This document shows, one piece after another, positions 4,296-16,460 of a stretch of DNA of 24,446 nt; position 1 is the stretch's first letter, and the number at the start of each line of letters is the position of its first letter. The position numbers were made by a program, and so were the translations under genes. Source of the stretch: a virus; the IMG/VR virus record IMGVR_UViG_3300036761_000560, positions 1-24,446 of that record; one strand, given 5' to 3'. The notes beneath the pieces were generated by a model. The model did no database searches. It saw nothing but the letters and a program-made list of their open reading frames with translations, and was not told where the DNA came from.

Positions 4296-4961
4296 TTATC
4301 TCATTAGTTTGTGGTACTTTTTAGCCAAGTGTCTAAAAACTGCAGGGTAATCTTTAAAGAATGAAGACCCTTCGAGATAATAGCCATACGTCTCAGAAAA
4401 CAACTCAGAGGCGTTATGTAAACTTACGTCTGACCGATTTTCTAATTGACTTAGTACTTCTTTTGACAGTTTATCATATGCATTCGTTAAAACTGCTCGA
4501 TCTTCAGGCTGCATCATGTAAAACATTTCATGTCCTACTTCGTGTGGAATAAGGTGAGGTGTTACTTGCGAAGGATCAACTCCAATTTTTGTCGACGTTC
4601 TCCAAAGAGGTGCGCCTGATCCGTGTTTGGACCAAATTGCTCCACTAGCTAAAGGGTGTGTCTTTGTATAAGATTCTTTTCCTATATCTTTATACGTACC
4701 AAGCATACCTACAGACTGTCTCACCTTCCTTGGAATTCGCATCGCTACTTCCTGCATCCATGCACCAAGTGAGGGTCCTCCTACTTTTGCTGCCAACTTT
4801 TCTAAACTGCTTGCAAGTGCTCCTTTGGATAATGCAAATGGTGTTGGTGTGATATAACTACTTATATCATACGGGTCAGGCATAATATACTTCAATCCTG
4901 GTACCTTCTCAGTCAAATCCATTAATTGTCGCTGTGTCTCTGATTGCTTAACGTATGACAT
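4296..4961 (-). CDS. HEVGH zinc metallopeptidase-like protein in the tail module
   Basis: 221 residues, ATG at 4961 preceded by GTAGGAGA. Residues 140-144 are HEVGH, the zinc-binding and catalytic motif of HExxH metallopeptidases, and residues 184-195 (ASELFSETYGYY) supply downstream glutamates of the gluzincin type; the E-x-F-x-E-x-Y/F pattern resembles the lethal-factor C-terminal-like (ATLF) group. No signal peptide or membrane segment is seen. It sits between two adaptor-like genes, so it could be a virion-borne protease acting on host surface proteins or on virion proteins. The gene looks more AT-rich than its neighbours (roughly 30-40% GC in sampled lines), consistent with a later insertion. 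Activity and target are unknown. Confidence 0.65.
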   Translation of the reverse strand: MSYVKQSETQRQLMDLTEKVPGLKYIMPDPYDISSYITPTPFALSKGALASSLEKLAAKVGGPSLGAWMQEVAMRIPRKVRQSVGMLGTYKDIGKESYTKTHPLASGAIWSKHGSGAPLWRTSTKIGVDPSQVTPHLIPHEVGHEMFYMMQPEDRAVLTNAYDKLSKEVLSQLENRSDVSLHNASELFSETYGYYLEGSSFFKDYPAVFRHLAKKYHKLMR

Positions 4962-5862: not shown

Positions 5863-6264
5863 CTAAAGTAATAACCCAATCAACGAAGGAATGTCCTTCA
5901 ACACGTTTGGAAAGTATTGTTGGAGTGTTGTGACAACCAGAGAACCTAACATTCTAACTCGAAGACCAAGAGATGCACCGAGTTCAAAATCTGTCCATTG
6001 GGTCTTCGTAGCTAAGATATCCAATTCATCCATTGCCTTGACAGCTTGAAAAGGAAGTTTACCAATGTTCTCACCAAGTGACGCTCTTATAAAACCTGAG
6101 TTGAGAGACCAAGTAGAGAGAAAGTCTTTAGCAAGTTGACGAGATGCTTCTGCGTTCTTAATATCCCATTGACCCGTCTTTGCAATCCCTCCTCTTATGT
6201 AAGAACATCCTTGCGTCATTGTTATGGGAACAAGAAGTAATACGATAATAAGAAATTTTTTCAT
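5863..6264 (-). CDS. Small putative lipoprotein
   Basis: 133 residues, ATG at 6264 overlapping the upstream stop as ATGA and preceded by GGAG. The N-terminus is a classical signal peptide: MKK, a hydrophobic run to about residue 16, then MTQGC with Cys20 as the possible lipidated residue. The -3 residue is Thr rather than the usual Leu, so lipidation is plausible but not certain. The mature part is helical with no recognised domain. Phage lipoproteins of this size include outer-membrane spanins and superinfection-exclusion proteins. A spanin is less likely because the mature part is not proline-rich and no inner-membrane partner lies beside it. Confidence 0.55.
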   Translation of the reverse strand: MKKFLIIVLLLVPITMTQGCSYIRGGIAKTGQWDIKNAEASRQLAKDFLSTWSLNSGFIRASLGENIGKLPFQAVKAMDELDILATKTQWTDFELGASLGLRVRMLGSLVVTTLQQYFPNVLKDIPSLIGLLL

Positions 6265-6527
6265 CTAACGTCTCCTTTCATGTTAGTAGGGAGTACAAGT
6301 TTAGGTACGACAACTTGTTGTGGTTTGAAATCTTTCACCAAATCACGAGCGATTTCGAGTAAGCCATAACAGAGCACCTTGTCGTGAAGTGGACCATGAA
6401 TGTTGATTTCACCGTTTGGTGCGACGATGATTGTGAATGTGAGTCCCTCTGCACCTGGTGGCACACTTTTTAAACCTGCATTATTACTCATTCTAAGCTC
6501 CTTTCTTCTTCGTGCGTTTGCGCCCAT
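6261..6527 (-). CDS. Small conserved-looking protein of unknown function
   Basis: 88 residues from ATG at 6527, whose A and T overlap the upstream TAA (TAATG), with GGGAG upstream. An internal ATG at 6491 (MSNNAG) also has a good AAAGGAG, giving a 76-residue form without the very basic RRRKELR head; either start is possible. The body has a beta pair (LTFTIIVAPNGEINIHG) and one helix (KVLCYGLLEIARDLVKDF). No family is recognised. It is co-transcribed with the glycosyltransferases before and the lipoprotein after it. Confidence 0.6.
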   Translation of the reverse strand: MGANARRRKELRMSNNAGLKSVPPGAEGLTFTIIVAPNGEINIHGPLHDKVLCYGLLEIARDLVKDFKPQQVVVPKLVLPTNMKGDVR

Positions 6528-7228
6528 TACACTCTCCCAATGTCATGCAACCACTCATCAAAACGCTCCTTCGTCCTTCCCCAACCTGGTATCTCGTCTG
6601 CTTCTAACCAACCTTGTGGCTTTCTCCTAAACTGATCTTGTTTCGTTCTCTTGTAAGTAAAGTTATTAGAATGGTTGATGTGGATGGAAGGGTGTAGGGC
6701 AGTGTAAGTCTCTATACCACCACAACGATCTTTTACAGGCACACCCTTTGGTGGTGTGAAACCGAGTATTCGATCGTGACCACAACGTTCTTCCTGTGCG
6801 AGAGCGAGATGAAAGTGTTTGAGGAGTAAGTTACGATAAGCACACATGAGAGATTCGTCACTGTGATGGTAAGTGAATGCCTGTCCATCCTTGGCACTGA
6901 CAAACCACTTATTCGTATCGAAACAGAACACATCCTCCCTCGATGGTGTGATGTCAAAGTGAGAAGGATGGTAGAGGATGTCGTGTTCGACAAAGAAAAC
7001 TACATCCGTTGGACATTCCTCTAACCCTTTTATTGTTTGTTTGTAAATAGAGATAATACCACGAGGATGGTACATGACGAAGTTCTTACCAAAGTCGATT
7101 GGGTAGTGAGAGATGGAGACAATTGGAAACCCCCACTCTTTCATACATCGCTTGAGTTGATTGCGACACACCTGCAAGATGCGTTCCTCACAGCGATTAT
7201 CAGTGTAGTAGATCAATCCTTTACTCAC
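6527..7228 (-). CDS. Glycosyltransferase-like protein (stand-alone copy of fusion C-terminal domain)
   Basis: 233 residues, GTG at 7228 with GGAGG six bases upstream, overlapping the preceding gene by 8 bases. It aligns over its whole length with the C-terminal half of the two-domain enzyme at 7221-8837: LIYYTDNRC/LIYYTDSHC near the start, VFFVEHDILYHPSHF/VFLIEHDILYNPSHF in the middle, and ADEIPGWGRTKERFDE/ADEVPSWGKTRGRFDE at the end. The EHD triad (about residue 80) after four hydrophobic residues is placed like the metal-binding DxD of GT-A glycosyltransferases. A role in transferring a sugar is inferred from this and the neighbours. It is not a known family by motif alone. Confidence 0.6.
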   Translation of the reverse strand: MSKGLIYYTDNRCEERILQVCRNQLKRCMKEWGFPIVSISHYPIDFGKNFVMYHPRGIISIYKQTIKGLEECPTDVVFFVEHDILYHPSHFDITPSREDVFCFDTNKWFVSAKDGQAFTYHHSDESLMCAYRNLLLKHFHLALAQEERCGHDRILGFTPPKGVPVKDRCGGIETYTALHPSIHINHSNNFTYKRTKQDQFRRKPQGWLEADEIPGWGRTKERFDEWLHDIGRV

Positions 7229-8837
7229 CTATCGCCTCCCGTATGATTTCGTCAAACCTTCCTCTCGTCTTACCCCAACTTGGCACCTCATCCGCACGAA
7301 TCCACTCAGGAGGGAGTTCGTGACGCTGTGTCTCGTTGAAGTTGAAACGGGAGGTTGAGAGGTTAGAAGAGTGACGGATGTCAAGATTGGGATGCTCTGA
7401 CTTGAAGGTGCGAATGTGAAAATGTTGCACCCCTTCATATCTCCGTTTACCAATAGCATGGCCCATTGTCTGATGAGAGTAACCAACCTTATCAATCATT
7501 GCTAAGAAGTCAGTGAGCCACTTTAATAATGTCTTTCGATAAGCAACGATGTGACCATTACTCCACGAGTAGTAGAAGATAGCCTCTCCCGTTTCGGCGT
7601 TAAGAGACCAGCGATTCATGTTGTAATAAATTTCATTGACATTAGGAGGAGTGAAGGCGAAGTGACTTGGGTTGTAGAGAATATCATGTTCGATGAGAAA
7701 GACAATGTCTGCCATGCTTGCTTGTAAGCCTCTGACAATTTGTCTGTACATACTGACAGTAGCCCGAGGGATGTCCATGACAATGTTTCTACCGAAGTCA
7801 ATGGACTTCTGTGAAACGGAAATGAGAGGAAAGTGATGTGTCTCCATGCACCTCTCAAGTTGTTTCTGACAAGCCAAGAGAATATCCTCACGACAGTGAC
7901 TATCCGTGTAATAGATTAATTCTTTCTTCACTATTTGTTGAGTCCAATCCGGTACTGGATCGAATTTTTTAATCAACCAAGAGATAGGGTGTTTGGCAAG
8001 TGACCACTTCCCTTCTAACCATAACTGCTTCGAGCGTTGTCTCGCCTTCGTGATACCAGGGTTGTGGTAGGGAAAGCCAAAGTCACCTCCCTGTGTGCGA
8101 AACATATGAGAGAACCAGGTTTTCTTATTGACGGCTAACCTTCCTCCTGAGAGCCATGATTTACAGGCGATCTCCGTACCCATTTGTCCCCACGAGCCAT
8201 GTTCTTCATCCATCCCACCTAAGTCCCAATAACGTTGACGATGCATCATCCAACATGCACCGATGAGAGACATCGTGTCGGCAATGTCAGCTTTTGACTC
8301 CTCTCTCTGTCCAAGTGCTCCCCAGTATTGAAATTTCAAATCACGATCAAAACGCATGAAGTCAGAGCAACGATTGAGGCGAGGTTGCCATACGATGACT
8401 CTCTCGAAGGCAGTCTTATTGTCACATTTAGGACATGAGGTTGGTGTTGGGCCTTGATATCGAGTATCACCACATTTCCCACACTTCCAATCGAAGGCGT
8501 GGAGGTTGTACATTCGTGGAACGATGGTCCAATCGGGTTCACAATCAGCCACCAACTTCACATCGAATCCCTTATCGAATGAACAATGTGCATCACACTT
8601 CATAACGAATTTGGCTTTTGAAAGTCTCGCTGCTTCGTTTGTGGCGGCCCGTTGACCAATGGATTGTGAGTGGTAGATGAGATGAACTCGTGGGTGATCA
8701 TGAATGGGTGGATCGGGCCAATTACCATCGCAGACAGCGATCACCTCTGTCTCTCCTTCAATGTTTGCAAGGATATTCTCGATGGTTTTAGAGAGAAACA
8801 TTTCGTTACGGGCTGGAATGAGAACGCTTAGGTCCAT
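7221..8837 (-). CDS. Two-domain glycosyltransferase (GT2 plus EHD domain)
   Basis: 538 residues, ATG at 8837 after GAGGAAG. Residues 1-300 are a family 2 glycosyltransferase: SVLIPARNE at the start, KCDAHC with a DxH metal site at 82-84, and an acceptor-side region (IGACWMMHR, GGMDEEHGSWGQMG). Residues 119-138 hold an inserted zinc ribbon (CX2C...CX2C), absent from the paralogue at 12370-13164. Residues about 303-538 are a second domain with an EHD triad at 383-385, repeated as a separate gene at 6527-7228. The junction sits right after VPDWT, exactly where the single-domain paralogue stops. Probably transfers two sugars in sequence; donor and acceptor are unknown. Confidence 0.75.
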   Translation of the reverse strand: MDLSVLIPARNEMFLSKTIENILANIEGETEVIAVCDGNWPDPPIHDHPRVHLIYHSQSIGQRAATNEAARLSKAKFVMKCDAHCSFDKGFDVKLVADCEPDWTIVPRMYNLHAFDWKCGKCGDTRYQGPTPTSCPKCDNKTAFERVIVWQPRLNRCSDFMRFDRDLKFQYWGALGQREESKADIADTMSLIGACWMMHRQRYWDLGGMDEEHGSWGQMGTEIACKSWLSGGRLAVNKKTWFSHMFRTQGGDFGFPYHNPGITKARQRSKQLWLEGKWSLAKHPISWLIKKFDPVPDWTQQIVKKELIYYTDSHCREDILLACQKQLERCMETHHFPLISVSQKSIDFGRNIVMDIPRATVSMYRQIVRGLQASMADIVFLIEHDILYNPSHFAFTPPNVNEIYYNMNRWSLNAETGEAIFYYSWSNGHIVAYRKTLLKWLTDFLAMIDKVGYSHQTMGHAIGKRRYEGVQHFHIRTFKSEHPNLDIRHSSNLSTSRFNFNETQRHELPPEWIRADEVPSWGKTRGRFDEIIREAIGE

Positions 8838-8838
8838 A

Positions 8839-8895
8839 TTACTTCCTCTTCATCACTCTCTTTGGCATTTTCTTCATATCTTTCTGCACTGGCAT
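8839..8895 (-). CDS. Possible 18-residue basic peptide gene
   Basis: Between the aminotransferase stop and the two-domain glycosyltransferase, an ATG at 8895 with AAAGGAAG upstream opens an 18-codon frame (MPVQKDMKKMPKRVMKRK) ending TAA at 8839. Its last codons supply the GAGGAAG binding site of the next gene, so it fills the gap exactly and would couple the two. Length alone does not prove it is real; half the residues are Lys, Arg or Met. Confidence 0.35.
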   Translation of the reverse strand: MPVQKDMKKMPKRVMKRK

Positions 8896-8896
8896 A

Positions 8897-10009
8897 TTAC
8901 TCACTTCCTTTCATTACTTCACAGATGTGCTCGACATCACAATCTCGCAAAAAGAGATGTAAAGGTAAGGTCAACGCCTGTTGATAAAACTCCTCCATTC
9001 CTTTACATCCATTCTCTCTCTCACACTCATTATATATGTGATAAAGATAATTAGGTTTGTAATGGCAACCAAATTGAATGTCATTTCTTGTTAGTGCCCG
9101 TACTATCTTCTCTCTATCCTTACACCTCACTTCCATAAGATGGTTAGAACTTTGAGAGTTGGGAGATTGAGTAAGCAGTTGAATCATCTCACACCCATCG
9201 AATCCCTTTCTATACAAATCCACTAACTCCTGTCTTCTCTGATTATCTCCATCCACTCTCTTCAACTGTGCCCTACCAATCGCTGCGGTGATGTCGTTCA
9301 TGTGAGACTTATACCCTAACTCATGAACGTCGTACTCCCAACTATACCCCACATTCGTGCGATCCCTTGTTGATTTGTCAATTCCCAACCACCGCAATCG
9401 TCTCGCCTTGTCAGCTATCCACTTCTCAGAAGTGACCAACATCCCTCCATCTCCTGTGGGGAGGTTCTTCACTGCGTGGAAGGAGAAACAGGCGAAGCGA
9501 GAGTTAGAACCAATCTTTCTTCCTTTGTAAGTCGATCCACAGGCATGGGCGCAGTCTTCAATCACCTCTGTTCCCTCTTCTCCTTCAATCATCTCATACA
9601 ACCTATCTATATCCACTGGCTGCCCACCGTAGTGAACTATCATAATCACACCAGGATGGTAAGCAGTCAAAAGTCGTTCCACAGAGTCTAAATCTATGTT
9701 GCCAGTCATGGGGTCAATGTCGGCAAAGATTATATCGTATCCGTGTTGGAGTAGAACGTGATTAGTACTGACGAAGGTGTTTGGAGTACTGACAGCCAAA
9801 ACATCCACACTGTCTAAACAAGTAATTGCTGCCTCCAAAGCTCCTGTGCCTGAGTTAAAGGCCACAGCGTGTTTTGCTCCAAGATAGGATGCGAACTCCT
9901 TCTCAAACGCCTCCACCTCTGGACCGAGTCCAAGCCAGCCGGAGTCGAGAACTCGAAGAACACCATCCTTTGCTTCCTGACAGATGTAAGGTTTGAAAAG
10001 GGGTATCAC
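8897..10009 (-). CDS. DegT/DnrJ/EryC1-type sugar aminotransferase
   Basis: 370 residues from a GTG at 10009 that overlaps the upstream TGA, with GGAGG just before. It is a complete PLP-dependent fold-type I enzyme of the DegT/DnrJ/EryC1/StrS family, which transfer an amino group to keto-sugar nucleotides. Seen motifs: DSGWLGLGPEVEAFE (23-37), SGTGAL (53-58), TPNTF (75-79), D152 in EDCAHA (ring-nitrogen contact), and the PLP lysine K181 in FSFHAVKNL, followed by TGDGGM. Length fits the family. It should make an amino-sugar donor for the neighbouring glycosyltransferases. No dehydratase or epimerase accompanies it, so the keto-sugar must come from the host or from outside the window. Confidence 0.9.
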   Translation of the reverse strand: MIPLFKPYICQEAKDGVLRVLDSGWLGLGPEVEAFEKEFASYLGAKHAVAFNSGTGALEAAITCLDSVDVLAVSTPNTFVSTNHVLLQHGYDIIFADIDPMTGNIDLDSVERLLTAYHPGVIMIVHYGGQPVDIDRLYEMIEGEEGTEVIEDCAHACGSTYKGRKIGSNSRFACFSFHAVKNLPTGDGGMLVTSEKWIADKARRLRWLGIDKSTRDRTNVGYSWEYDVHELGYKSHMNDITAAIGRAQLKRVDGDNQRRQELVDLYRKGFDGCEMIQLLTQSPNSQSSNHLMEVRCKDREKIVRALTRNDIQFGCHYKPNYLYHIYNECERENGCKGMEEFYQQALTLPLHLFLRDCDVEHICEVMKGSE

Positions 10010-10296
10010 AACTCCTCCATTATCTTGTGCAGACGAATGAGGTCTTTGCGTTCACTCTTACTATCCATACCATGTCGATATCGCCAAAGTTTATCGTTTG
10101 TCCTTTTAGCCATCACAGTGGCGATACGTACTTTTTTCATTATCACCCTCGCCTTTGGATCGTCAATTGTCTCGGCAAGTTTATACATACGACGGAGAAC
10201 TTCACAGAGTGACCAATATCGACCCACTTTTTCCATATTGAGAGCTTGACATTCCTTCTCTGTCACTTCTCGTAAAACCTTAATCGGCTCTGCCAT
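10006..10296 (-). CDS. Small helical protein of unknown function
   Basis: 96 residues, ATG at 10296 immediately after the upstream stop, with GGAG in the end of that gene. It is all helix by appearance and rich in charged residues (ARVIMKKVRIATVMAKRTNDKLWRYRHG), with no zinc or catalytic motif. Its stop overlaps the aminotransferase start, so the two are translationally coupled. It may be an accessory subunit for the cassette, but nothing in the sequence says of which enzyme. Confidence 0.6.
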   Translation of the reverse strand: MAEPIKVLREVTEKECQALNMEKVGRYWSLCEVLRRMYKLAETIDDPKARVIMKKVRIATVMAKRTNDKLWRYRHGMDSKSERKDLIRLHKIMEEL

Positions 10297-10986
10297 TTAT
10301 GTCACTCCAACCACTTTGAACTCTTCAATGAACAAAGGTAAGGCTTTAAGTGATGAGAGATGTACAACATCTTGATAATAATCCGTATATCCTCCAATGG
10401 GCATTAATCGATCGAAGAGAGTGATAAAGCGACCACCTCGTACCGACATTCCTTTTTTAAGTTCATCATTTAGTATCCGTGTCGCAAGATTGCGTTCAGG
10501 TTCGGTACCAAAGGATGGATAGCGATTGCCGATAGGCCACGGTGGTGATGGATGTGGACCAATGACAAGGATGTGTTGGTAAGTCAGGGGTATGTCCGTG
10601 ACGATGGTGTCAATGTCTCGCAGATAGGTCGCACCACAAAGCCTCGCTTCTATCTCAATTTCCTGTTGTAATCCATTACGTTGTGCCCGTTTGTATGCTC
10701 TCTTCACGATCCACATACGACAATCAATCTCTCCCCAAACTAGACATAGGAAGTCTTTCACAGAGTTGAAGTAGGTTTTGACAACTTCCCTAACTACAGG
10801 CGTTCCATGTTTCCCAAAGTTGACAGCGAGATGTGGTCCAACGTGGTAGCACCACCAATTAGGTCTGTATAGACTCTGTACCCGTTGCGGCCAAAGTGGA
10901 GCAATCCAACGCTTAGATAAGCCACCGAAGACCGAAACATTACTATCACCAATGAAATGTAGGTTCGTCTCTTTCAAAGGATACAA
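10297..10986 (-). CDS. SGNH-hydrolase-like protein (esterase or acyltransferase)
   Basis: 229 residues from TTG at 10986, or 226 from TTG at 10977, which overlaps the upstream stop and has GGAG at a better spacing; no ATG precedes the first motif. The order of motifs fits the SGNH/GDSL group: GDS with the nucleophile Ser at about 15 (LHFIGDSNV), GEID in the block III position (normally GxND), and DVVH as the Asp/His block near the C-terminus. Such domains add or remove acetyl groups on sugars, which matches the cassette. The replacement of the block III Asn by Ile-Asp is unusual and could weaken the assignment. Confidence 0.65.
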   Translation of the reverse strand: MYPLKETNLHFIGDSNVSVFGGLSKRWIAPLWPQRVQSLYRPNWWCYHVGPHLAVNFGKHGTPVVREVVKTYFNSVKDFLCLVWGEIDCRMWIVKRAYKRAQRNGLQQEIEIEARLCGATYLRDIDTIVTDIPLTYQHILVIGPHPSPPWPIGNRYPSFGTEPERNLATRILNDELKKGMSVRGGRFITLFDRLMPIGGYTDYYQDVVHLSSLKALPLFIEEFKVVGVT

Positions 10987-11813
10987 TCTCCACAGATAGG
11001 ATGCTCTGTTCTCTCAATCGTTAACTGTTGTGCAAACTCTTTATAAACTTCACTCATTAGAATTGCATTATACTTATCTCTCTTCAAATCTCCCAAGATG
11101 TGAGCGGTTGGATGTGCGCAACATGGCACAGCATACCCATCTGAATTGACATAAAACGTTGCACCAGAAAAAGCATCTTTAATGAAGTGACAAGCCTTGT
11201 TCGTAACAGCAGGCTTAACTTGTTTGACTCCTGGTAAGTAAAGATACCTGCGATAACTTGGTTCCCAATCATTTGGCGTGAGTATCTGATTCCATCGCTC
11301 ACGTCCTGTCTTTGTCCGACCAATAATTCGAGTCCTCAACTTCAAATTCGGTGCATATTCGTCTCTAAGCCTCCTTCCAGTTGAAAGAAAATTCATCAAC
11401 ACGTCCCATTTTGCAGGTGGTCGAAGTCTTTCATAATCTTCTTTTGTCCCATTTCCATCACAACTTACCACCAATATATCCAATTCACCTGTCTTAAAGA
11501 GGTCAGTTATTTTAGAAAAGTCCTGATATTGACCATTTGTGGATATTTCCAAGCGACTATACTCTCTCCACCATGTTTGTTTAGGTATCTCAAGAACCAA
11601 CTCGATGAGATTTGGGTGGAGTAAAGGTTCTCCGAAGTTAAATAAACGAAGAAGAGAGATGGCGGCAACATCAAAATTCTTCAAACAGGTTGCGAAGTCA
11701 GTGAGGGAGATAAAGGAAATCCCTGTATTGATGGCAGAATTTGGACAACCAATACATTTCAACTGACACCCACTAACTATGTCAAAACCTAATCTACGCA
11801 GTGTTTTAACCAT
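10974..11813 (-). CDS. Radical SAM/SPASM-type enzyme
   Basis: 279 residues from ATG at 11813, whose first bases overlap the TAA of the methyltransferase (TAATG) with GAGGAAG upstream; a start 51 bases earlier overlaps more and is unlikely. CX3CX2C at residues 16-23 (CQLKCIGC) binds the [4Fe-4S] cluster, then the FNFGEPLLHP glycine-rich segment and LEISTNG follow as in radical SAM barrels. Several Cys near the C-terminus (CHF, CCAHP, CGDC) are typical of a SPASM-like auxiliary cluster. Such enzymes modify peptides or small molecules by radical chemistry. In a glycosylation cassette the substrate could be a sugar or a peptide; this cannot be told from sequence. The gene looks more AT-rich than the neighbouring genes. 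Confidence 0.8.
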   Translation of the reverse strand: MVKTLRRLGFDIVSGCQLKCIGCPNSAINTGISFISLTDFATCLKNFDVAAISLLRLFNFGEPLLHPNLIELVLEIPKQTWWREYSRLEISTNGQYQDFSKITDLFKTGELDILVVSCDGNGTKEDYERLRPPAKWDVLMNFLSTGRRLRDEYAPNLKLRTRIIGRTKTGRERWNQILTPNDWEPSYRRYLYLPGVKQVKPAVTNKACHFIKDAFSGATFYVNSDGYAVPCCAHPTAHILGDLKRDKYNAILMSEVYKEFAQQLTIERTEHPICGDCIL

Positions 11814-12439
11814 TACTTCCTCACCCAGAACCAACTGGGATGAATGTCGTTGGTGATGTACCATTGAGTGATTGAGTGAGCGTAAGTGTAAGCATTGACA
11901 GCTTCCACTACACCAATCTTGGAGATGTGAAAGTAGTCATGTCCAGAGACAATGCCTCCAATACGTACCTTGCGATTCCATGTTATGAGATCGATCATTA
12001 TGTCGTCGAAGAGGTGAGAGGCATCGATGTAAACGAAATCGAGTGAACCATCCTTAACCTCCTTCGCTGCATCGACACTTAACATACGTTTCACTTCAAT
12101 ATCACGTCCAACCAACCGTCCCATAGCAGAGTCGTAACGAGACTGTTTCAACTCTCCCAACCAAGGGTCGACGCAGATTAAGTGAAGGTTGGGGTTGGCG
12201 TCTAATAAGACCTTAGCGTTTTCCCCTTTATACACTCCAACCTCTGCTCCTAATTTGTAACCAAGTTCGTAGAAGAGTGTGGCAAGATCGTTGCGAGAGA
12301 AGGTGTTGGTTTTACTACTAAAAGGTAAAATACCCCCTTTCATGCGAAACTTATGCCAAATGTGTCGATCTACGTCCACGATGGGACTGGCGCAAATTTC
12401 CCTATCAACCAAGAGAGGGGATGAGTCTGTTTGGGCCAT
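11813..12439 (-). CDS. Class I SAM-dependent methyltransferase
   Basis: 208 residues from ATG at 12439 (GGAG nine bases upstream); an ATG at 12454 is also possible. Either start overlaps the preceding gene by 70-85 bases in another frame, so the first residues (to about VDVDRHI) are less certain. Motif I is GAEVGVYKGENA, followed by VDPW, then DFVYIDASHLFDD and the GG of KVRIGGIVSGHDYF. This is the pattern of the Methyltransf_24/cephalosporin-hydroxylase-like group, often found with glycosyltransferases where it methylates sugars. Substrate unknown. The stop overlaps the radical SAM start. Confidence 0.8.
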   Translation of the reverse strand: MAQTDSSPLLVDREICASPIVDVDRHIWHKFRMKGGILPFSSKTNTFSRNDLATLFYELGYKLGAEVGVYKGENAKVLLDANPNLHLICVDPWLGELKQSRYDSAMGRLVGRDIEVKRMLSVDAAKEVKDGSLDFVYIDASHLFDDIMIDLITWNRKVRIGGIVSGHDYFHISKIGVVEAVNAYTYAHSITQWYITNDIHPSWFWVRK

Positions 12440-13164
12440 AGGTTCTGTCTCCATACCTTATTTGCATACTCAATAGATTTAGCACGAGCTTCCCTACGTT
12501 CTGGATAATCGGTGGAAGGTTTGGACCAGTGAGCATACCATGTACTACGGTTGAGAACGCAGCGCCCACCAGAGAGCCAAACTTTGAGACAAATCTCCTG
12601 CGCTTCACGTCCTGTCCAGCCGTAGTTGATGTCGTCCTCACCTTCGATCTTTTCAAACAACTCTTTACGCATGAACCAACATGAACCTTGTGTGGTCATG
12701 AGATCAGCAATGGGTTGGCCATTGACTCTCTCTGCATACTCAGGCCAATCCTTACCTTTTAATGTGTCATGGTGGATGTATTGGAATTCGTGTATTTCGT
12801 TCGTGCGTTCCCACTTCTCAACATTCAACCCATAACGAATGGGGACAATTAACCAATCGGATTCGCAACCCACCTTCAACTTCTCATCGAAGGCTTCGTC
12901 GAAAAGACAGTGAGCATCGCATTTTAGAAGGTAGTCACCTTTAGCGACGCTGGCTGCGGAGTTGATTGCAGAACGCATACCTTGTGAGGCACCTCTGTGA
13001 ATGAGAGTGAGGTTAGGGTTGTCTCGTAGGGTTGGCGATGGCCACCAACCATCCAACACAACAATAACCTCAACCTCTCCCCTTACTTTCTTAAAGAGGT
13101 CAGAGAGCATTTGTTGAAGGTAAGATTCATTGCGTGCTGGAATGAGAATTGAGACTTTTTTCAT
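12370..13164 (-). CDS. Family 2 glycosyltransferase, single-domain paralogue
   Basis: 264 residues, ATG at 13164, 9 bases after the serine-repeat gene. Starts with SILIPARNE, has KCDAHC with the DxH metal site at 83-85 and GCESDWLIVPIRY, and ends in HPLSWLIGKFAPVPSWT. It aligns with residues 1-299 of the two-domain enzyme at 7221-8837 but lacks the zinc ribbon insert and stops right where that enzyme's second domain begins. The fold and DxH site are those of GT-A enzymes such as the polypeptide GalNAc-transferase-like group. Being the first gene after the serine-rich protein, it is a good candidate for the enzyme that starts the sugar chain on it; that is inference. Confidence 0.8.
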   Translation of the reverse strand: MKKVSILIPARNESYLQQMLSDLFKKVRGEVEVIVVLDGWWPSPTLRDNPNLTLIHRGASQGMRSAINSAASVAKGDYLLKCDAHCLFDEAFDEKLKVGCESDWLIVPIRYGLNVEKWERTNEIHEFQYIHHDTLKGKDWPEYAERVNGQPIADLMTTQGSCWFMRKELFEKIEGEDDINYGWTGREAQEICLKVWLSGGRCVLNRSTWYAHWSKPSTDYPERREARAKSIEYANKVWRQNLWPKQTHPLSWLIGKFAPVPSWT

Positions 13165-13173
13165 ATCCTAACC

Positions 13174-13839
13174 TTATGCCCCAGTTGGTGATGGACTTGC
13201 TGAGATAGATGGACTTACCGAAGCACTTGGGCTCCACGATGGACTCACACTGGCTGAGAGACTTGCAGATGGACTCACCGATGGAGAGAGTGAGGCAGAG
13301 ATTGAAGGCGATACACTCAGAGAGATTGAAGGTGAAAAACTGGGCGATACACTCGCACTTATGGATGCTGATGGACTCACACTTGGTGACACCGAAGCAC
13401 TAATACTTGCACTTGGTGAGACACTCGGACTCTCACTCGCACTGATTGATGCACTCGGAGAGGGAGATAAACTCACTGATGCCGAGATACTTAGTGAGAC
13501 ACTCAGTGAAATACTCGCTGATATACTCAACGATATACTCGCCGATGGACTCTGTGAAGCACTCGGTGAGAGTGAGATCGATGGTGAGATCGATAGTGAG
13601 ATTGATGCGCTGGCCGACTGTGATGCACTTATCGACGCCGATGGTGCTGTTCCAGCTACGTGTAACCAACTTGCCCAGTCAGCAGTTACATCCGTGAGCA
13701 CCCAAAAATCATTTGCAGTGGTGTCGAGCCAAAGAGTTGGTACGGTGTATGTATTATCATCCTCCGTTGGAGGATCGGACTTTATCACATACTCTAAATA
13801 ATTCCTTCCCCAAACTCCTCCTCCAGTTCCCCAAGCCAT
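13174..13839 (-). CDS. Serine-repeat virion protein
   Basis: 221 residues, ATG at 13839 with AAGGAGG upstream. Residues 1-65 resemble the short N-terminal module of phage head or tail fibres ([19 protein letters not shown], then WLHVAGT). Residues 67-218 alternate Ser with Ala, Ile, Leu, Val or Pro in a strict two-residue repeat, with a few Gln, Glu, Phe and Trp. No membrane segment or signal peptide, so it is a structural rather than exported protein. The gene lies after the head genes and immediately before a glycosyltransferase cassette. A Ser-rich extended arm displayed on the virion and decorated with sugar is the most economical reading; no direct evidence of glycosylation exists here. 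Confidence 0.8.
13186..13641 (-). repeat. Serine-X dipeptide repeat region
   Basis: About 76 consecutive Ser-X pairs coded with a mixture of TCN and AGY serine codons, so the DNA is not a simple tandem repeat even though the protein is. It resembles a stretch kept by selection at protein level. The antisense strand stays open across it because of this pattern. Confidence 0.85.
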
Positions 13840-13851
13840 TTCTCTACCTCC

Positions 13852-14226
13852 TTATTGTACACAAAGATACATTGTTACGAGTGAGTCCACCTCGTTCCCT
13901 GCATTACCACGAACGACGAAACGTATATAAGGAAGGTAAGGTGGAATGAAAGAGTAAATCCGAACGGTCTCAACATTCATCGTTGTGATAATATCAGCAG
14001 CACCAACTGGTGTGGCAAAGTGAGCAGCGGTGTCATCGTAGGACATCTCGTAGTAGAAACGTAAATTAGGTGTCCCGAGAACAGAGGTGGCCTGTATCCA
14101 TGCACTGAACGATCCACTCACGTGCTCAACTTTGAAACTTGCACTCGTAACGGTGGCGAGACCATTACAAAGTTCGCCTGACCAAACCTGCATTGCACCT
14201 AAGAGACCAACAACATAATTTGACAT
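13852..14226 (-). CDS. Small virion-like protein, unknown
   Basis: 124 residues, ATG at 14226 with GAGGAGA upstream. Mostly beta by appearance (ATVTSASFKVEHVSGSFSAWIQ, NLRFYYEMSYDD, LPYIRFVVRGNAG), like a small jelly-roll or decoration protein. No catalytic or binding motif. Position between capsid-type genes and the serine-repeat gene suggests a virion surface component. Confidence 0.55.
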   Translation of the reverse strand: MSNYVVGLLGAMQVWSGELCNGLATVTSASFKVEHVSGSFSAWIQATSVLGTPNLRFYYEMSYDDTAAHFATPVGAADIITTMNVETVRIYSFIPPYLPYIRFVVRGNAGNEVDSLVTMYLCVQ

Positions 14227-15504: not shown

Positions 15505-15528
15505 CTAAAAACCACACGAGGTTTTTAG
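15505..15528 (-). terminator. Hairpin at the end of the capsid gene
   Basis: CTAAAAACC and GGTTTTTAG form a perfect 9-bp stem with a 6-base loop; the capsid TAA (15527-15525) is in the first arm. The short GC core and T-run inside the stem make it at best a weak terminator, or an RNA end or processing site. Confidence 0.35.
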
Positions 15529-16460
15529 GTCAATCCTGTCATTATTCCCTGCACCCTACGTTGCTGACAAATGAGATTGCCCATCGTAAGCAACTGTCTA
15601 ACATAAGCGTCCTGATTGGTTGGTGTCTTCTCCGCCGTCCAGTCGAAGTTCTTGTGTCGATTGAAAACAAACTTCCAGAAGTCGGTGTTGAGGAAGAACA
15701 TGTAACCAGCAGGACAATGATTATCAACGATCATATCAGCATGACCGTTGAAGTTGATGCCAGTGAAACCAACCTGAGCCAACGATGACTTAGAGTCAAG
15801 AAAGCGTTGTTGAGGTTGAACCCGTGCCCACACTTTATCATAGAGAGTCTGCGTTGTGAAGATCAAATCAGGCTTCTTCTGTCCGATGGTGCATGAACCA
15901 ATCATTGAGTTGATGGCGTCGAGAGTGACTGCACCACCCGTTGAATCGATTTGAGCTGTCCACCAGGTATCGGTTGCGCCTGAAATGCCTCCGTAGGAAG
16001 CGTAGGTGGTGCTGTCGATGGCATTCAGTAAACCATCGAAGTCCTTCGATACGTTACCCGTACCATCACCAAAGATCATGTTAGAGAGGAGTTCGTTCAT
16101 GGTCATTGTAGCTGTCTCCATCTTCGATTGGAGTAAGCCAATGACCTTCTCATCCCCTTCTGTCTTGGCAATGTCGGTACCTGGGATTGTAACGTTGACG
16201 TAGACTGCCTTCCAATCCCACTCAGCCATTGTCTGTGTCTGCTTATATGAGATGTCGAATGCATCGAGTCCCATATAAGAGCCACCTGCCAACTGTCCAT
16301 ACAACACAGGTTGAACAATCTTAGAGCCGGAGTCAAAGATGATCTGCGACTTGGCTAAGAGTTTGACAAGAAGGGCATTTCCAACAAAAATCTGGTCGAT
16401 CAGGGTAGGAATGTATTTCTTCCTCACCGCAGCGTCCATGTCGTTATATGTTAGTGCCAT
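15525..16460 (-). CDS. Major capsid protein, HK97-fold type
   Basis: 311 residues, ATG at 16460 after AAGGAGG. Starts with MALTYNDMDAAVRKKYIPTL, a helical arm, then a beta/alpha core with Y-x-DM-type strand pairs (WDWKAVYVNVTIPGTDIAKTEGD), a helix KVIGLLQSKMETATMTMNEL typical of the spine helix, and the peripheral region GDGTGNVSKDFDGLLNAID. Late part DWTAEKTPTNQDAYVRQLLTMGNL fits the final strands. It is preceded by a scaffold gene and no capsid protease is visible, in line with scaffold-assisted assembly. Length is typical for the family. Its leader is heavily structured. Confidence 0.85.
   Translation of the reverse strand: MALTYNDMDAAVRKKYIPTLIDQIFVGNALLVKLLAKSQIIFDSGSKIVQPVLYGQLAGGSYMGLDAFDISYKQTQTMAEWDWKAVYVNVTIPGTDIAKTEGDEKVIGLLQSKMETATMTMNELLSNMIFGDGTGNVSKDFDGLLNAIDSTTYASYGGISGATDTWWTAQIDSTGGAVTLDAINSMIGSCTIGQKKPDLIFTTQTLYDKVWARVQPQQRFLDSKSSLAQVGFTGINFNGHADMIVDNHCPAGYMFFLNTDFWKFVFNRHKNFDWTAEKTPTNQDAYVRQLLTMGNLICQQRRVQGIMTGLT

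Follow-up and report, generated by a model that had tools for sequence, protein, structure and literature searches.

Environmental phages encode a serine-repeat virion-type protein beside GalNAc-transferase-like enzymes, a probable O-glycosylation module

We analyzed a 24,446-base fragment from an IMG/VR virus record, referred to here as the window, in which the gene for a protein with a long Ser-X dipeptide repeat is followed by a cassette of enzyme genes. Very likely, the cassette is a module devoted to O-glycosylating a virion protein on its Ser-X tail. Reading along the minus strand, the order is terminase, portal, a scaffold-like gene, major capsid, three small genes, the Ser-X gene and then the cassette. 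A glycosyltransferase gene thereby sits within the structural region, with the capsid gene at 15525–16460 and the cassette running from 13164, as is characteristic of phage-encoded virion glycosylation; a long Ser-X repeat adjoining glycosyltransferases is likewise characteristic of serine-rich repeat glycoprotein systems. The initial annotation had placed the cassette between head and tail genes. The head side stands (terminase, portal and major capsid), whereas the other flank yielded no firm tail assignment.

The repeat spans residues 67–218 of the Ser-X protein, and all 76 of its 76 serines fall on one parity. Both the repeat of about 150 residues and the same-strand glycosyltransferase 9 bases past its gene, as originally described, are thus borne out: the TAA stop is followed, after 9 bases, by the ATG of the gene at 12370–13164. 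The X residues in the window are chiefly Ala, Pro, Ile, Val and Leu; across 15,855 Ser-X positions they are Pro (34%), Ala (18%), Val (13%), Ile (9%) and Leu (7%). The serines of the window repeat are written with 32 AGY and 44 TCN codons, interspersed, and TRF found only weak short arrays. Because the two codon types occur in mixed order, the alternation is maintained by selection on the protein. An origin by chance or by microsatellite slippage at the DNA level was ruled out by the 76/76 parity together with the interspersion of two disjoint codon families. The ortholog in L069, a related phage contig, has the same anchor domain and repeat. The N-terminal domain of about 65 residues may anchor the protein on the particle, to judge from the position of the gene, which follows those for capsid and small structural proteins, and from relatives that have no repeat.

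In eukaryotes, the GT27 polypeptide GalNAc-transferases (GalNAc-Ts) start mucin-type O-glycans on Ser/Thr. The only Pfam label for the 12370–13164 protein is Glycos_transf_2 (PF00535). A single-sequence search of PDB sequences with this enzyme retrieved GalNAc-T12 (E 2.4e-4), a 9-sequence profile of its family matched GalNAc-Ts over the full length, and with a 30-sequence profile the top 14 PDB matches were GalNAc-Ts, covering residues ~3–252 with a best E of 7.5e-14. A different glycosyltransferase from a sister phage gave no PDB match. With the AlphaFold model of the enzyme (pLDDT 81.6, pTM 0.85), GalNAc-Ts filled all top 50 Foldseek rows; upon VIA re-alignment of the predicted structure, the best 29 entries were all GalNAc-Ts (Z 22.9–24.5), the next best scoring Z 19.1. 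Residues D83, H85, E190, G200 and H212 are invariant among 81 family sequences. D83-x-H85, E190/G200 and H212 align with the D-x-H motif, the Gal/GalNAc-T motif and the H-V-F-R motif of GalNAc-Ts, positions whose metal-binding and catalytic roles are established for GT27. In the W-G-x-E-N-x-E...W-x-C-G-G motif, E187 is conserved in at least 90% of 30 sequences, and E190 and GG199-200 are invariant. Judged by profiles and predicted fold, the enzyme is related to the eukaryotic GT27 GalNAc-transferases. The initial annotation had correctly called it a glycosyltransferase (PF00535) and had missed this relationship.

The cassette encodes a second GalNAc-T-like domain (7221–8837), whose best phmmer matches among PDB sequences are also GalNAc-Ts (E 1.3e-5). 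It is fused to a C-terminal domain of 233 residues that recurs alone at 6527–7228; we label this domain DUF233. The fused architecture recurs in relatives. No Pfam family matched the stand-alone DUF233 protein, and its model (pLDDT 95.7) resembles many GT-A enzymes at Z ~13, which points to a GT-A fold; the PBCV-1 capsid glycosyltransferase is among the Foldseek matches. Of the two additional glycosyltransferase genes first annotated here, the fusion is supported by its GT2 domain and GalNAc-T matches, and the DUF233 gene by predicted fold. Within the second GalNAc-T-like domain we also noted a rubredoxin-type zinc ribbon (CGKCG...CPKC; NF045720; window 8392–8492, residues ~116–148), which the L069 ortholog retains.

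The repeat and the enzymes recur together. Searching viral_contigs with the glycosyltransferase alignment, and without regard to Ser-X, yielded 79 loci, or 67 clusters at 80% identity. A Ser-X open reading frame (ORF) lay within 10 kb of the GalNAc-T-like enzyme in 64 of the 79 loci and 53 of the 67 clusters, compared with 0 of 22 loci of a control phage glycosyltransferase family (Fisher p 9e-12). This family served as the control because a portal-based control scan returned only the known sister phage. All 119 Ser-X ORFs from viral loci and metagenome-assembled genomes (MAGs) share the strand of the enzymes, and in 41 of 82 Ser-X loci no more than 100 bp separate Ser-X from the closest enzyme gene, with which it often overlaps by 1–4 bases. 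The reverse scan, using a Ser-Pro/Ala DNA pattern and blind to the enzymes, collected 24 Ser-X records; the glycosyltransferase family was present in 10 of these and in none of 22 control records. Two further records (L111 and L118; G004:7138-8210 and G008:5990-7062) carry a divergent GT2 and DUF233-like pair that the GalNAc-T-like profile missed, so the scanned family probably does not cover the whole system.

Sister phages, found with the window's capsid protein, were compared for repeat and cassette. Ser-X was scored within the locus and the glycosyltransferase family over the whole record; L069 and L193 are one contig, L198 was left unscored as its contig ends inside a glycosyltransferase gene, and L194, L196 and L197 were too short. 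Both repeat and cassette are present in three lineages (the window, L069 and L002), neither is present in six (L001, L195, L199, L200, L201/L202 and L203, which share capsid, portal or small genes), and none is discordant, although the numbers are small. The suggestion that repeat and cassette travel together, made with the first description, is thus upheld by the viral loci and by the capsid family alike. The L069/L193 order matches that of the window: small gene, Ser-X, glycosyltransferase, methyltransferase, DegT, glycosyltransferase fusion and DUF233. L002 carries a glycosyltransferase-methyltransferase fusion, and its Ser-X gene lies 24 bp past the glycosyltransferase fusion. In L199 and L200 the gene at the corresponding place encodes the same N-terminal domain without a Ser-X tail, and their records lack the glycosyltransferase family. 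The repeat therefore acts like an optional extension, present when the cassette is present.

Across the 79 viral loci, homologs of DUF233 occur in 72, of the methyltransferase in 58, of DegT in 6, and of the radical SAM (S-adenosylmethionine) and SGNH-like proteins in none. The conserved core is the GalNAc-T-like enzyme, the methyltransferase, which is fused to that enzyme in many relatives, and the second GT-A-fold enzyme. On these counts the radical SAM, SGNH-like and DegT proteins were rejected as core components; the initial annotation had given too much weight to what are variable genes. Its labels for the methyltransferase, radical SAM enzyme and aminotransferase agree with profile matches, whereas the SGNH label depends solely on motifs seen by eye, the protein having no Pfam, NCBIfam or PDB match. 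The best PDB match of the radical SAM protein is BtrN, a weak one (E 0.004); possibly it oxidizes an alcohol to a ketone that the DegT aminotransferase then uses. The DegT protein scores 305 bits against TIGR03588, under the cut-off of 423.5, and is 76% identical in L069. In that contig another methyltransferase-like gene replaces the window's radical SAM gene, SGNH-like gene and 96-residue ORF, a substitution in the gene content that suggests interchangeable glycan decoration genes.

Table 1. Features of the window discussed in the text.
Feature	Position	Strand	Basis or remark
Major capsid protein	15525..16460	-	phrog_9953, 2.5e-57; query for sister phages
Small structural-type gene immediately preceding Ser-X	13852..14226	-	Ortholog in L069 at equal position, 62% identical; no PHROG match
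Ser-X repeat protein, 221 aa (222 codons), proposed O-glycan acceptor	13174..13839	-	N-terminal ~65-aa domain + 152-residue repeat
Polypeptide-GalNAc-transferase-like GT-A enzyme, 264 aa, proposed initiating O-glycosyltransferase	12370..13164	-	PF00535, 6.3e-13
Methyltransf_24 SAM methyltransferase, proposed sugar O-methylation	11813..12454	-	PF13578, 4.8e-14
Radical SAM/SPASM protein	10974..11864	-	SPASM, 9.5e-10; likely start codon 11812
SGNH-like protein, possible O-acyl transfer or hydrolysis	10297..10986	-	GDSN + DxxH motifs by eye
96-aa cassette ORF	10006..10296	-	
DegT/PseC-like sugar aminotransferase	8897..10009	-	PF01041, 5.6e-94
Fusion of second GalNAc-T-like domain and C-terminal GT-A-fold domain	7221..8837	-	GT2-type; rubredoxin-like zinc-ribbon insert
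Stand-alone DUF233 copy, proposed glycan-extending transferase	6527..7228	-	Predicted GT-A fold

Based on these observations, we suggest the following mechanism. The 12370–13164 enzyme, to go by its homology and catalytic residues, would move a sugar from a nucleotide sugar onto the regularly spaced serines. The fused second GalNAc-T-like enzyme and its GT-A-fold partner would either lengthen this glycan or begin new ones at other sites; O-methylation would fall to the methyltransferase, and phage-specific decoration to the DegT, radical SAM and SGNH-like proteins. The product would be a mucin-like, sugar-coated appendage, probably acting as a hydrophilic shield or as an adhesion or receptor ligand. 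Actual glycosylation of the tail, the donor sugar, the virion location and the role are what we infer here.

Several observations weigh against this proposal. In 15 of the 79 viral loci no Ser-X lies within reach; in 14 of the 15 the contig stops within 10 kb, so a cassette routinely lacking the repeat gene, which would have spoken for another target, is not what we find. General Ser/Thr-rich tracts replacing Ser-X were mostly absent from these 15 loci. Neither enzyme set is seen in 12 of the 24 Ser-X records from the reverse scan, most of which are short fragments, but two are 26–34 kb and one is 66 kb. The shared orientation of repeat and enzymes is partly expected in late phage operons. The second transferase lacks the equivalent of E187, one of the two conserved Glu, and the virion location of the Ser-X protein would follow from synteny. 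The 264-residue first enzyme has no C-terminal ricin-type lectin domain, PF00535 alone being found; because this usual domain is absent, we file the family as related to GT27 and not as a member, and the GT27 name depends on activity and a tree. As a separate observation, one locus without Ser-X has a Thr-X-type repeat (TKTSTATRTKTST) near the cassette (L032:8376-8744), possibly an alternative acceptor.

Could the cassette act on something other than the repeat? Its aminotransferase, methyltransferase and acyl-type genes resemble those of O-antigen clusters, and the DegT protein is near PseC/ArnB-type enzymes, as might be expected if it altered a host surface polysaccharide (lipopolysaccharide, capsule or teichoic acid) against superinfection, in the manner of serotype conversion, with Ser-X an unrelated neighbor. 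We consider this improbable. The glycosyltransferase matches protein-modifying GalNAc-Ts, not Gtr or undecaprenyl enzymes, the linkage to Ser-X is tight and recurrent, the cassette lies inside the late structural region near the capsid gene, and DegT, with its few occurrences among the relatives, is outside the core. Modified DNA bases are common substrates of phage glycosyltransferases, and this frequency is what favors a cassette that hypermodifies the phage DNA with glycosylated bases and has no link to protein. That explanation is very hard to credit, as no base-hydroxymethylating or related gene was seen in the 24-kb window and both the GalNAc-T-type fold and the Ser-X linkage speak against it.

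The enzymes might also glycosylate a different virion protein, the major capsid or a small head protein as in mycobacteriophage Che8, leaving the Ser-X tail as an unmodified disordered spacer. Capsid glycosylation does exist in phages (Che8; cited in PMC11256854), and the sister phages without Ser-X have the same capsid family. These same sisters, which keep the capsid and small head proteins and lack Ser-X, also lack the cassette, so the capsid is not a constant partner. Ser-X is the common companion across unrelated phages; homologs of the window's major capsid, portal and scaffold proteins occur in 2 of the 79 loci. Modification of another virion protein in place of the repeat is thus unlikely, and we favor the Ser-X tail as the acceptor.

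Beyond the viral loci, tblastn against 50,697 phage records with the window enzyme or a second member did not find the family, and BFVD contains one viral protein at TM 0.79 and 27% identity. In genome_contigs we found 53 loci, mostly in MAGs of Patescibacteria, the candidate phyla radiation (CPR), including Woesebacteria, Daviesbacteria, Levybacteria, Saccharibacteria, WWE3 and others; Ser-X is nearby in 18. Some MAG loci resemble phage contigs (L177). In L149, a 240-kb WWE3 contig, FtsX and TsaE genes lie 5–8 kb from the cassette, and integrated or cellular versions may therefore exist. In two CPR MAGs (L149:7899-17140 and L162:5212-16429), the cassette comes after a pair of genes encoding an IS200-like transposase and a small membrane protein, the transposase being identified by a Pfam match with an SH3 domain in L149 and by eye in L162; a mobile element may have brought the cassette into CPR chromosomes.

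Other features of the window and its sisters were noted in passing. A protein with an HEVGHE motif in the structural region (window 4296–4961), with relatives in L001 and L002, is likely a zinc metallopeptidase. A small protein at 5863–6264 has a signal sequence and a lipobox-like Cys (MKKFLIIVLLLVPITMTQGC) and is possibly a lipoprotein or lysis component. The major capsid gene is unbroken in the window and L069 and interrupted in several sister phages (L001:6048-7640, L002:3296-4928, L201/L202 ~9962-11366); in L001 and L002 a LAGLIDADG-like ORF, recognized by eye, lies at about the same codon, which suggests a homing endonuclease within an intein or a self-splicing intron. A defense system was considered and rejected, PADLOC giving no match.

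Mucin-type O-GalNAc glycosylation has been stated not to occur in bacteria (PMC5504323). We do not claim that it never does, because CAZyme profiling annotated GT27 in food isolates of L. reuteri (PMC12741103); our literature search found no paper linking GT27 and phages. We regard it as an evenly balanced question whether phages of uncultivated bacteria, many of their hosts probably Patescibacteria/CPR or neighbors, run true mucin-type O-glycosylation with a GT27-clade enzyme and a purpose-built, mucin-like Ser-X domain. If they do, mucin-type initiation takes place outside eukaryotes, and the fold of the GalNAc-Ts may go back to prokaryotes or viruses. A widespread phage family that bears the catalytic signature of GalNAc-Ts and is genetically linked to a dedicated Ser-X acceptor would be the closest counterpart in the prokaryotic world, and one testable in E. 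coli. Glycoprotein engineering could profit from such a GalNAc-T-like enzyme, which is small, has no lectin domain and would come with a known acceptor of great regularity. The family would also account for the striking Ser-X proteins seen in environmental phages and would point to sugar-coated virions among phages of barely cultured hosts.

The GtfA and GtfB transferases belong to the GT-B superfamily. They accompany the Gram-positive serine-rich repeat glycoproteins Fap1 and GspB (PMC5207161, PMC7948813), in which, as in the phage system, a serine-repeat acceptor is encoded beside its own transferases and modifiers. Unlike the phage protein, apparently a component of the virion, Fap1 and GspB are cell-wall adhesins that use accessory Sec export and a different transferase superfamily; family scans of the window's cassette proteins detected neither GtfA/GtfB-type transferases nor accessory Sec export genes. 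The staphylococcal Ser-Asp repeats are, like Ser-X, perfect dipeptide serine repeats, and SdgA and SdgB load nearly every one stepwise (59 GlcNAc on 60 DSD motifs; PMC3794999). There, however, X is Asp, the acceptors are bacterial surface proteins, and SdgA and SdgB are closest to each other and not to GalNAc-Ts. Phage-encoded glycosylation of virion proteins is described for mycobacteriophages Che8 and Rita (Freeman et al. 2023, cited in PMC11256854); the acceptor is a capsid protein, and the account in PMC11256854 reports no dedicated Ser-X repeat.

The strongest structural likeness is to the eukaryotic GalNAc-Ts (GT27; GalNAc-T1, -T2, -T10 and Toxoplasma GalNAc-T3), whose GT-A fold the predicted phage enzyme matches at about 2.5–2.9 Å over ~250–262 residues. 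It shares with them the D-x-H metal motif, the E..E..W..GG motif and the second metal His, and its proposed acceptor is likewise Ser-rich and Pro-containing. It differs in having neither a ricin-type lectin domain nor a Golgi signal anchor, in an identity of only ~15–20%, and in that the phage genes are often fusions with a methyltransferase or with another GT-A domain.

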